A DNA stretch of 64,000 nt from Neorhizobium alkalisoli. Its GTDB lineage: Bacteria > Pseudomonadota > Alphaproteobacteria > Rhizobiales > Rhizobiaceae. Location of the stretch: positions 1 to 64,000 of the forward strand of contig NZ_VIWP01000003.1 in assembly GCF_007829835.1 (NCBI RefSeq), written 5' to 3'. The notes beneath the pieces are model-generated. The model did no database searches and was not told where the DNA came from. It saw only the letters and a program-made list of their open reading frames with translations. The position numbers and the translations under genes were made by a program. Positions 2,913 to 30,625 of the stretch are shown here, in pieces. The first letter of the stretch is position 1; each line of letters opens with the position of its first letter.

Positions 2913-3013
2913 ATTTGAAAATCATTATAAATTTTCCGGACGACCTTATCATGAATCTTGGATGCCAAGGGGGGTGTCCGGGGTCGCTATTGCCGGAATT
3001 TCGGCCAAGATTA

Positions 3014-26338: not shown

Positions 26339-26833
26339 TCAGCGTTTGTGCTTTTCGTTGAGGGCCTTCAGGATGGGAGCCGGCACGAAATCCGTGACGT
26401 CTCCCCCCATGGCGGCGATCTGGCGAACCAATGTGGCGGTAATGGGCCGCGAGGCCGTGCCCGCCGGCAGGAACAGCGTCTGGATATCCGGCGCCATCTT
26501 GCGGTTCATCGCCGCCATCTGCATTTCGTAGTCGAAATCGGTGCCGTCGCGCAGGCCGCGGATCAGCACGCTTGCGCCATGCGCGCGCGCCGCATCGACA
26601 ACGAGGCCGCTGAACGAGACGACAGAAATATTTCCGCCCTTTTCCGGCAATGCCTCGATCAGCGAAGTGCGGATCAGCTCGGCCCGTTCATCAAAGCTGA
26701 ACGTCGGCACCTTGCCTGGATGAATGCCGATCGCCACGACAACCTTCTCCGCCACGTTCAGAGCCTGAACGAGGATATCGAGATGGCCGTTCGTCATCGG
26801 GTCGAAGGAGCCGGGATAAAGCGCAGTCGTCAT
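26339..26833 (-). CDS. coaD: phosphopantetheine adenylyltransferase
   Basis: 164 residues from the ATG at 26833; the frame runs upstream without family sequence. [10 protein letters not shown] at residues 8-17 is the nucleotide-binding T/HxGH motif, and [11 protein letters not shown] corresponds to the ISSTxVR block. Fourth step of coenzyme A synthesis. Confidence 0.95.
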
Positions 26834-26923: not shown

Positions 26924-26962
26924 CTGAATATCAGATGAACACGCCATTCAAGACGCTTTCAG
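26924..26962 (+). promoter_or_regulatory. 39-bp symmetric operator-like element, copy 1
   Basis: CTGAA...TTCAG with four half-sites, TGAA, TGAA, TTCA, TTCA, each exactly 11 bases from the next. A CACTATGG sequence that could be a -10 follows about 6 bases later. It lies between coaD and the 28-residue gene. Copy 2 lies at 27128. Confidence 0.6.
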
Positions 26963-27027
26963 GGCCACTATGGTCAACTCATCCTCACGACGGACAGAGT
27001 GCCCGTTGAAACACGAGAGAGACGACA

Positions 27028-27114
27028 ATGCTGGCGTTGATGGTCATGGGTGCGGTGTTTGCAGCAGTTCTGCTCGATGCCTTCCTCTATGTCTTCGTCG
27101 AAGAGGAAGCCTGA
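27028..27114 (+). CDS. 28-residue membrane microprotein
   Basis: 28 residues, nearly all one hydrophobic helix (about 2-24), ending in acidic residues (EEEA). GAGAGAGAC precedes the ATG. It sits behind copy 1 of the 39-bp element. Its small size and single helix suggest a regulator or subunit of an inner-membrane protein, but no partner is visible. Confidence 0.5.
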   Translation: MLALMVMGAVFAAVLLDAFLYVFVEEEA

Positions 27115-27127
27115 ACCGGCTCCAATT

Positions 27128-27166
27128 CTGAACGCCAGATGAACGAGCCATTCAAACATGCTTCAG
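27128..27166 (+). promoter_or_regulatory. 39-bp symmetric operator-like element, copy 2
   Basis: Same four half-sites with 11-base spacing as copy 1. 23 of the first 28 bases are identical, including CAGATGAAC and GCCATTCAA. It precedes the 59-residue gene by about 85 bp. Confidence 0.6.
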
Positions 27167-27251
27167 AGCAAATGGTTTACGTTCTCTCAAAATACGGTGG
27201 ATCTCGGGCGTAAAATTTACGTCAGGGCTTAGAAAGAAGGATACAGCGGAG

Positions 27252-27431
27252 ATGATGATCGCAAAACGCAAGATGGCCATGGACAAGATCACCATGATCA
27301 ACCTGGTCTGGACTGCCATGGTCGCAATGATGCTGACCGCGACGGTTACGCTTTATCAGGACCGTTCCCACTTCAACGACAACGGCTATCAGCAGATCAC
27401 TGGTCGCTACAACGACATCTCGTACTACTGA
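27252..27431 (+). CDS. 59-residue single-helix membrane protein
   Basis: 59 residues: a basic start, one hydrophobic helix (about 14-34), then a polar tail rich in Tyr, Asn and Asp, probably periplasmic. GCGGAG and AAGGA lie before the ATG. Preceded by copy 2 of the 39-bp element and followed by a strong terminator. Family unknown. Confidence 0.6.
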   Translation: MMIAKRKMAMDKITMINLVWTAMVAMMLTATVTLYQDRSHFNDNGYQQITGRYNDISYY

Positions 27432-27603
27432 TCGGATCGGGGCGGAGTTGACTGACGATATCGAAACTCCGCCAAAAGCGTGAGGGTATCGACGACTTCG
27501 CTCTTCATCGCAGTGCTTTTCAAGCAGACGTTTCATTCATAACGTTTTCAGGCGAATTCAGCAGCGAGCCGGGCTTCAGGCAGCTGTTCAGCGCAGCCGG
27601 TTC

Positions 27604-27640
27604 AAAAAAAGCCGGAGGATCTTCATCCTCCGGCTTTTTT
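27604..27640. terminator. bidirectional rho-independent terminator
   Basis: GCCGGAGGAT (27611-27620) and ATCCTCCGGC (27625-27634) with a CTTC loop, flanked by a run of A before and six T after, so it can work in both directions. The rest of the 340-bp gap to gyrA holds no gene. Confidence 0.85.
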
Positions 27641-27772: not shown

Positions 27773-30625
27773 TTATTCGGCGGCGCCCTCATCCGTCTCA
27801 CCGGCCACGCCGGCTTCATTGGCCTGAGCGCCTTCCGATGCGGTACCGGCTTCGGCACCTGCCTCGTCCAGCTCGGCCGCAACTTCATCCTCACCTTCCG
27901 GCTCGCTGATGCGCTCGACGGACACGACCTTCTCGTCCTTGGCGGTGGAGAAGATGGTGACGCCCTTTGTGGCGCGGCTGGCGATGCGGATGCCGCCGAC
28001 CGGAACACGGATCAGCACGCCGCCGTCGGAGACGAGCATGATCTGATCCTTGTCCTCGACCGGGAAGGCGGCGACGAGTTCGCCGATCTCGGCGGTCTTC
28101 GACGTATCCGTTGCGCGGATACCCTTGCCGCCGCGGCCCGACGTGCGGAAATCGTAGGACGACGACCGCTTGCCATAGCCCTTTTCAGAAACCGTCAGGA
28201 CGAACTGTTCACGTCCCTTCAGCTCTTCGTAACGCTCGTCACCCAGCTGTCCCTCTTCGGTGACTTCCTCACCGACAAGAGCGATATCCTCTTCATCGAC
28301 GCCGGCAGCACGACGATCGGCAGCCGAGCGCTTCAGATAGGCGGCACGTTCCCAAGGTTCCGCATCCACATGGCCGAGAATGGTCATGGAGATCAGGCGG
28401 TCGCCTTCGGCAAGCGTCAGGCCACGAACGCCGATCGAGTTGCGGCCGGCAAAGACGCGGACCTCATCGACCGGGAAGCGGATCGCCTGGCCGAGCGCCG
28501 TGGTGAGCAGAACGTCGTCACCGGGTTCGCCGATATCGAGGTTCGGACCCTTGCAGGTTTCGACGGAGAGGATTTCATCGCCCTCCTCCTCGAGCTTCAT
28601 CGCGATCTTGCCGTTCCGGTTGACCTGAACGAAGTCTGACAGCTTGTTGCGGCGAACCGTGCCGCGCGTCGTCGAGAACATGACGTCGAGATCTTCCCAG
28701 GACTTTTCGTCCTCGGGCAGCGGCATGATCGTGGTGATGCGTTCGCCGGGCTCCAGCGGCAGCATGTTGATCAGCGCCTTGCCGCGCGATTGCGGCGTGC
28801 CGATCGGCAGGCGGTAGACCTTTTCCTTGTAGACGATGCCACGCGAGGAGAAGAACAGGACCGGCGTATGCGTGTTGACCACGAACAGACGTGCAACGAA
28901 ATCCTCGTCGCGGGTCGCCATGCCGGAACGGCCCTTGCCGCCGCGTCTCTGGGCACGGTAGGTGGCCAGCGGCACACGCTTTATATAACCGAGATGCGAA
29001 ACGGTGACGACCATGTCCTCGCGGGCGATGAGATCCTCATCGTCCATGTCGAGGCCGCCATCCATGATCTCGGTGCGGCGCGGCGTGCCGAATTCATCAC
29101 GAACAGCCGCCATCTCGTCCTTGACGATCTGCTGGATGCGCAGACGCGAGGAGAGAATGTCGAGATAATCCGAGATCTCAGCGCCGATCTTGTTCAATTC
29201 GTCGGCGATTTCGTCACGGCCGAGAGCCGTGAGGCGGGCCAGACGCAGTTCGAGAATAGCACGGGCCTGCTCTTCCGAGAGGTTATAGGTGCCGTCCTCG
29301 TTGATCTTGTGGCGCGGATCGTCGATCAGCCGGATCAGCGGCTCGACATCATGGGCCGGCCAGCGGCGGGTCATCAACTGCTCGCGGGCGGTCGCCGGAT
29401 CTGGCGCCTTGCGGATCAGGTTGATGACTTCGTCGATATTGGCGACCGAAATCGCCAGGCCGACCAAGACGTGGGCGCGTTCGCGCGCTTTGCGCAGCAG
29501 GTATTTTGTACGACGGCTGACGACTTCTTCGCGGAAGGCGACGAAGGCGCGTAGCATGTCGAGCAGCGTCAGCTGTTCCGGCTTGCCGCCGTTCAGCGCC
29601 ACCATGTTACAGCCGAACGAGGTCTGCAGCGGCGTGTAGCGGTAAAGCTGGTTGAGGATGACGTCGGCATTGGCATCGCGCTTCAGCTCGACGACAACGC
29701 GGTAACCCTGACGGTCGGATTCGTCGCGCAGGTCGGAAATGCCCTCGATGCGCTTTTCGCGCACGAGTTCGCCGATCTTCTCGACCATCGACGCCTTGTT
29801 CACCTGATAGGGAACTTCGGTGATGATGATCTGTTCGCGATCGCCACGCAGCGGTTCGATCGTGGCGCGGCCACGCATCATCACCGAGCCGCGGCCCGTT
29901 TCATAAGCCTGACGGATGCCCTGCCGACCGAGAATCAGCGCGCCGGTCGGAAAATCCGGACCCGGAATGATTTCCATCAGTTCCGGCAGTTCGATCGCCG
30001 GATTGTCGACGATCGCGATGCAGCCGTTGATGACTTCCGTCAGATTGTGCGGCGGGATGTTCGTCGCCATGCCGACGGCGATGCCGCCTGCGCCATTGAC
30101 GAGCAGGTTCGGGAATTTTGCCGGCATAACGACCGGCTCCGACATGGTGCCGTCGTAGTTATCGCGGAAATTGACGGTCTCCTTGTCGAGATCGTCGAGC
30201 ATCGAATGAGCAGCCTTTTCAAGGCGACACTCGGTATAACGCTGGGCGGCCGGCGGATCGCCGTCGATCGAGCCGAAATTGCCCTGACCATCGATCAGTG
30301 GCAGTCGCAGCGACCAGTCCTGCGCCATACGCGCCAAGGCGTCGTAAATCGCCGAGTCGCCGTGCGGGTGATATTTACCCATCACGTCGCCGGTCACGCG
30401 GGCCGATTTTACGTATTTCTTGTTCCAGTCGATCCCCATCTCGTTCATCGAGAAAAGGATACGCCGGTGCACCGGCTTCAATCCGTCACGGACGTCGGGA
30501 AGCGCGCGGGACACGATGACGCTCATGGCGTAATCGAGATAGGACCGCTGCATCTCTTCCATGATGGAAATGGGTTCGATGCCTGGAGGCAGCTTTCCGC
30601 CGCCGGGTGTGCTTTGCTCAGTCAA
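27773..30625 (-). CDS. gyrA: DNA gyrase subunit A
   Basis: 950 residues. Catalytic Tyr at about 130 (AAQRYTE), quinolone-determining region [17 protein letters not shown] with Ser-91 and Asp-95 at the E. coli 83/87 positions, and the GyrA box QRRGGKG at the start of the beta-pinwheel. An acidic insertion (roughly residues 760-800) and an acidic, Ala/Glu-rich tail are typical of alphaproteobacterial forms. Introduces negative supercoils with GyrB. The Ser and Asp present are those of sensitive enzymes. A GTTC-N7-GTTG sequence 14 bases upstream is a near-match to an SOS box only. Confidence 0.97.

Follow-up and report, generated by a model that had tools for sequence, protein, structure and literature searches.

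The window analysed here, a stretch of 64,000 nucleotides of Neorhizobium alkalisoli, contains an intergenic region flanked on the left by coaD and on the right by gyrA, both on the minus strand, in which two copies of a mirrored four-arm element, TGAA-N7-TGAA-N7-TTCA-N7-TTCA, and two very small genes were found (Table 1). The tetramers start at 26925, 26936, 26947 and 26958 in element 1 and at 27129, 27140, 27151 and 27162 in element 2, always in steps of exactly 11 bases, and the 39-bp span assigned to each element comprises the four arms plus one flanking base on either side. These positions and this spacing had been reported in a first-pass annotation made from the sequence alone, and the window sequence confirmed them. 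Element 1 ends 66 bases before an open reading frame of 28 codons and element 2 ends 86 bases before one of 59 codons.

Table 1. Positions of genes, elements and predicted promoters in the coaD-gyrA region of the window
Feature	Position	Strand	Basis
coaD, left neighbour, transcription directed away from element 1	26339..26830	-	ORF list, family match
Element 1, mirrored four-arm site TGAA-N7-TGAA-N7-TTCA-N7-TTCA	26924..26962	.	sequence, genome search, genus loci
Element 1 distal half, TTCA-N7-TTCA read on the minus strand	26925..26939	-	motif as in PMC3616915
Element 1 proximal half, a TTCA-N7-TTCA overlapping the -35 of a predicted rightward promoter; candidate FeuP box	26947..26961	+	sequence, genus loci
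Predicted -10 of element 1, TCAACT, preceded by TGG	26974..26979	+	sequence, genus loci
Gene of a 28-aa single-span membrane microprotein	27028..27114	+	ORF list, aligned loci, pN/pS
Element 2, mirrored four-arm site	27128..27166	.	sequence, genome search, genus loci
Element 2 distal half; minus strand TTCATCTGGCGTTCA, near the feuN box TTCATTTGCCATTCA	27129..27143	-	sequence comparison
Element 2 proximal half, candidate FeuP box	27151..27165	+	sequence, genus loci
Predicted -10 of element 2, TACGTT	27178..27183	+	sequence, genus loci
Diverged EcfG-type promoter, GGATC-N16-CGTC in the window	27199..27223	+	comparison with genus loci
Gene of a 59-aa membrane protein, purifying selection	27252..27431	+	ORF list, homologue search, pN/pS
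gyrA, right neighbour	27773..30625	-	ORF list, family match

Beyond the 59-aa gene, two further features were noted. A strong GC-rich inverted repeat with A and T runs on its flanks (27604-27640, by eye) looks like a bidirectional terminator between this gene and gyrA. A lone TTCA-N7-TTCA at 27536-27550 was taken as a chance occurrence, because none of the other 29 loci of the genus has a counterpart.

When the whole genome (7,026,071 bases) was searched for the exact pattern, as the first-pass annotation had proposed, exactly two matches were obtained, both of them the elements of the window, against an expectation per genome of 0.0004 from the single-base composition of the window and 0.0016 from a first-order Markov model. 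Allowing up to two mismatches gave ten places in the same genome, eight of them inexact and three differing from the pattern at one position. The reversed pattern, which served as a control, was absent from every genome of the genus/order, family and class searches. The exact element was present in 44 of 60 genomes, namely the genome itself, 34 of 35 others of the genus and 9 of 24 from other families of the order, and at least two exact copies were found in 33 of the 35 same-genus genomes. It was also found in 38 of 121 genomes of a family sample (33 of 109 genera) and in 8 of 385 genomes of a class sample, one of the eight being the genome under study. These counts are lower bounds, because exact matching overlooks weaker sites. 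Each genome had from one to four exact copies or none, so that candidate targets can be read from the sequence. Four genomes of the genus (G014, G001, G021 and G004) carried a further exact element near genes of tad/cpa pilus type, assigned by eye (position 3001 of loci L078, L080, L083 and L084); no exact match of this kind was found in the genome under study.

The two small reading frames evolve as coding, judging from their substitution patterns. Mean pS and pN were 0.63 and 0.19 for the 59-aa frame (30 sequences) and 0.62 and 0.36 for the 28-aa frame (22 sequences, of which one, from L043, was non-homologous), and the shifted frames of the 28-aa stretch gave pS/pN values of 0.53/0.43 and 0.33/0.51. 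On these values, purifying selection is strong on the 59-aa protein and weaker on the 28-aa one. The proposal that each element precedes the gene of a tiny membrane protein was borne out, both ORFs being present and both having a coding signature, and the conservation of the element upstream of homologous small genes, on which the first-pass annotation had made its interpretation depend, held across the genus. A homologue of the 59-aa protein was found in all 35 same-genus genomes and in none of the 24 genomes of other families, and a frame of the 28-aa type was kept in 25 of 30 genus loci, in some of them with changed ends (by eye). For the 28-aa protein the comparison was made from the aligned genus loci; a homology search of the 121 family genomes returned its own copy as the sole significant match, and the 17 other matches (E 0.3-2.8) all lay inside long frames. 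Pfam and NCBIfam gave a family for neither protein, and a comparison of this region with Rfam yielded only two matches, both scoring far under the curated values. A third small membrane protein gene, of 44-52 aa, follows the 59-aa gene in 20 of 30 genus loci (L035-L045 and others) and is absent from this window. Small membrane ORFs of 43 aa in Sinorhizobium meliloti Ak57 (L305:834-965) and of 41 aa in Shinella sp. PSBB067 (L306:901-1026) follow the element on the coaD side; the CDS tables, which are incomplete, list no gene for either, and the 28-aa protein did not align with the 43-aa ORF found at the same place in S. meliloti.

PhoB and CtrA boxes consist of direct half-sites 11 bp apart, bound by head-to-tail dimers of winged-helix regulators. 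Both elements have the 11-bp direct half-site step of OmpR/PhoB-type operators but, compared with PhoB and CtrA boxes, they add a second, inverted pair, and their half-site is TGAA/TTCA. Alphaproteobacterial LexA binds GAAC-N7-GAAC, and the left half of element 2 fits this SOS box, here as well as in 27 of the 28 genus loci. For element 1 the window copy shows no such fit, and only 7 of 28 copies in the genus show it; the right half, the feuN box and the ndvA box do not fit either, and three more matches to GAAC-N7-GAAC or GTTC-N7-GTTC in the window lack the mirrored arms, which makes a LexA site extremely improbable. The operator motif of the iron-responsive regulator RirA is TGA-N9-TCA, which the centre of each element fits. 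The feuPQ genes of R. leguminosarum were also first linked to iron uptake (PMC11103875), but TGA-N9-TCA occurs 28 times in the 64-kb window and, being so common, does not explain the conserved outer arms; we give a RirA operator hardly any probability.

Other envelope two-component regulators of the same order, ChvI and CenR, are known, and their reported sites, N-GCC-N8-GCC or TTGC-N3-GCAA for ChvI and the repeat AgTCAC--C--cGTgAct related to CenR (PMC9731502, PMC9561847), do not match the four-arm element; both were rejected. The Brucella CenR/EssR paper states no motif in its text. Each half of the two elements corresponds to Motif 3, the direct repeat TTCA-N7-TTCA that Schluter et al. (2013, PMC3616915) described upstream of 12 genes in S. 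meliloti; five of the 12 are known FeuP-dependent genes, and the repeat was put forward there as a candidate site of FeuP. Among the matches listed in searches of the literature on FeuQ, FeuPQ, motif and 'FeuP box', this repeat occurred only in PMC3616915. In S. meliloti Ak57 the shared direct repeat lies upstream of feuN and ndvA; in contrast to Motif 3, two boxes are here mirrored into a four-arm element which occurs twice in one intergenic region, a form that the motif section of PMC3616915 does not describe.

Among the regulators of the genome, the box pointed to one protein. There were 33 Trans_reg_C matches, and of the 30 loci compared only one (L149, feuNPQ) had a box close upstream of the operon; a second (L147) had TGAA-N7-TGAA, but 927 bp away. 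In the L149 operon, the gene of a small exported protein stands together with those of a response regulator and a histidine kinase. The regulator shares 88.7% identity with the annotated FeuP of S. meliloti Ak57, so that FeuP is present in this genome, and the small protein is 62% identical to the annotated FeuN over 66 residues. An exact box was found in 29 of 30 feuN upstream regions of the family, often as TTCATTTGCCATTCA, and in 7 of 1500 mononucleotide shuffles. In S. meliloti Ak57, an exact box lies 54 bp before feuN. Upstream of ndvA, which is reported to be FeuP-controlled (PMC11103875), a box is accompanied by one distal arm, and an exact four-arm element is found at a distance of 108 bp from coaD. 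A single box would be expected by chance in about 1% of such regions. The record CP090106.1 bears the label of the S. meliloti plasmid pSymB but carries coaD, feuNPQ and a gyrA match, and is apparently a chromosome under a wrong label. Outside the order, one genome (G282) had an exact element directly before a regulator-kinase operon, the regulator of which was 56% identical to the FeuP studied here and 41% to the next regulator of the same genome as that FeuP.

Co-occurrence within the family sample pointed in the same direction. A FeuP match (E<=1e-70) was missing in 8 of 121 genomes, none of which had the element, against 38 of 113 elsewhere; this association is weak because several of the eight genomes are small. 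Seventy-five of the 113 genomes with FeuP had no exact four-arm element. The upstream regions of ndvA in 15 relatives contained no four-arm element either, and the single box found in the ndvA upstream set, at -392, was that of the genome under study, implying that the FeuP regulon differs between genera or that ndvA is otherwise controlled there. Another OmpR-family regulator of the same specificity, a FeuP paralogue of the SMc02366 type, might bind the element instead, alone or in a mixed dimer with FeuP. A FeuP-like pair, SMc02366/SMc02367, has been reported in S. meliloti (PMC5539429), and a second FeuP-type match of about 49-57% identity was found in a number of family genomes; however, in the genome under study FeuP itself is the sole match at E<=1e-70, and the regular occurrence of the box at feuN was also counted against a paralogue, which we therefore consider improbable. 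Comparative evidence supports the shared regulator and the OmpR/PhoB-type 11-base periodicity proposed in the first-pass annotation, and suggests that this regulator is one protein, FeuP.

Potential promoters were sought beside the elements. Element 1 is followed in the genus by a conserved extended -10, TGnTnTnnT, with T at offsets 13 and 18 past the last TTCA in 26 of 28 loci; the T....T pattern was also frequent at offset 10 (21 of 28). TAnnnT was present at offset 13 in 12 of 28 loci after element 2, in 18 of 29 before the RNA described below, in 3 of 20 before exported proteins and in none of 29 feuN promoters. The S. meliloti hexamers at that offset, read by eye, were GATAAT (ndvA), TAATGA (feuN) and TAACGT (the element on the coaD side). 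Motif 3 is expected within about 40 nt of a transcription start; at part of the sites a predicted -10-like hexamer lies 13 nt past the box. The hexamer supports a putative rightward promoter at many but not all sites. Leftward transcription of coaD from element 1, in addition to or in place of the small genes, may be envisaged, given that element 1 and the S. meliloti element lie 94 and 108 bp from coaD, respectively, and that, among the boxes, the leftward-facing distal one of element 2 comes closest to that of feuN. No left-side TAnnnT was found at the expected offset in any of the 28 copies of each element, nor in the 29 RNA and 20 exported-protein loci; element 2 sits behind the 28-aa gene, and many other element sites have no coaD nearby. 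Taken together, these observations leave control of coaD very improbable.

A second type of promoter was recognised downstream of element 2, ahead of the 59-aa gene. In Rhizobium etli, the motif of EcfG1 promoters is GGAAC-N16-CGTT (PMC3892343), and the same motif, with a spacer of 16 or 17, occurred at this place in most of the genus loci (19 of 30, against 15 of 15,000 Markov control sequences), at positions -49 to -51 relative to the start matched for the 59-aa gene. The window itself differs from GGAAC-N16-CGTT by two substitutions, and its copy is best described as diverged. The motif is kept at a locus with one element (L043) and at another with none (L047), implying that the FeuP-type and EcfG inputs are separable. 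The "peptide pair" of the first-pass annotation is too simple a description, given the EcfG promoter at the second gene in most relatives and the third small membrane gene in 20 of 30 loci.

Outside the region, 23 sites were inspected, largely by eye; 15 of them precede a small exported or membrane protein, 3 precede an RNA and nothing was recognised at 5, a count that refers to chosen fetched sites and excludes the four pilus-region sites and those not fetched. Of 9 loci of the class sample, which come from 7 genomes, 6 likewise lie before a protein of this kind (by eye). The link to the envelope suggested earlier is in line with the 15 inspected sites, which bear on it indirectly.

At three sites in other families the element was followed by a common sequence, from which a covariance model was built. 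Among 297 genomes of the order, the model found this RNA in 22, to which the family of N. alkalisoli contributed none, and the 23 loci include the three members of the model. Fifteen of these had the four-arm element (up to 3 mismatches, within 150 nt before the core) and two the proximal box only; the other six were unscored, the core having been missed (3) or wrongly picked (3). The records were labelled mostly Hyphomicrobium or Hyphomicrobiaceae, with single ones of Methyloligella, Filomicrobium and Caulobacteraceae. A scan for the proximal box together with the RNA core gave 34 stretches, and both distal arms were exact in 29 of them, or in 26 of 31 when the three loci from which the RNA was first known (L283, L293 and L299) are left out. 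The distal half is conserved although the scan never required the distal arms, and this is not an accident. One stretch (L287, labelled Blautia) was unlike the RNA and was dropped. The RNA, of about 80 nt, consists of ACCCUGA, CUUCCCCGGCGUGAU and then a covarying hairpin, the loop of which can pair back to the 5' end; an example is that of Hyphomicrobium zavarzinii (L276:1277-1356, minus strand), and further loci are L081, L085, L005/L087 and L267-L300 except L287. In the 33 sequences, the hairpin and pseudoknot pairing was kept in 97.4% of the cells of the alignment, and 77 cells showed double changes against a shuffle mean of 19.0. Double changes occurred at 9 of the 11 hairpin pairs; the pseudoknot is less certain than the hairpin because five of its seven pairs are invariant and one covaries. 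Rfam gave no convincing match for this RNA, and none of the matches listed for Hyphomicrobium and small RNA, as far as titles and the first part of the abstracts tell, apparently deals with it; the RNA appears undescribed.

Reported roles of FeuP and FeuQ are the sensing of osmolarity, control over the export of cyclic glucans and a response to NCR peptides of plants (PMC11103875, PMC5539429, PMC12714254). Considering the box, the promoter geometry and the conservation together, we propose, with a probability of about 0.82, that each 39-bp element, with its two mirrored FeuP boxes, serves as an operator through which FeuP would activate small envelope-protein genes. From these sequence comparisons we infer binding by FeuP, activation rather than repression, cooperation of the two halves and an envelope function of the peptides. 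The simplest model would be a class II activator with one dimer per direct repeat: phosphorylated FeuP would bind as a head-to-tail dimer to the proximal TTCA-N7-TTCA, which covers the -35 region and is followed after 12 bp by a weak -10, and would turn on rightward transcription, and a second dimer on the inverted distal box would reinforce the activation. Element 1 would in this way drive expression of the 28-aa membrane microprotein and element 2 that of the 59-aa protein, the gene of which would have, in most relatives, a second route through an EcfG general-stress promoter.

Three things are new here: the mirroring of the site into four arms, the microproteins and exported proteins as its candidate targets, and the structured RNA family, mainly of Hyphomicrobiaceae, behind the same element. 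We see about even odds that an envelope regulon of FeuP extends across the order with the four-arm element as its signature operator, and that the main outputs of this regulon would be very small proteins, both membrane microproteins and short exported ones, together with a new pseudoknotted RNA of about 80 nt found chiefly in Hyphomicrobiaceae. The element flags membrane microproteins that are easily missed. If the proposal is true, FeuP would, as a regulator of the envelope, link the production of microproteins to control by RNA, and stress signals from FeuP and EcfG would be integrated at the 59-aa protein.
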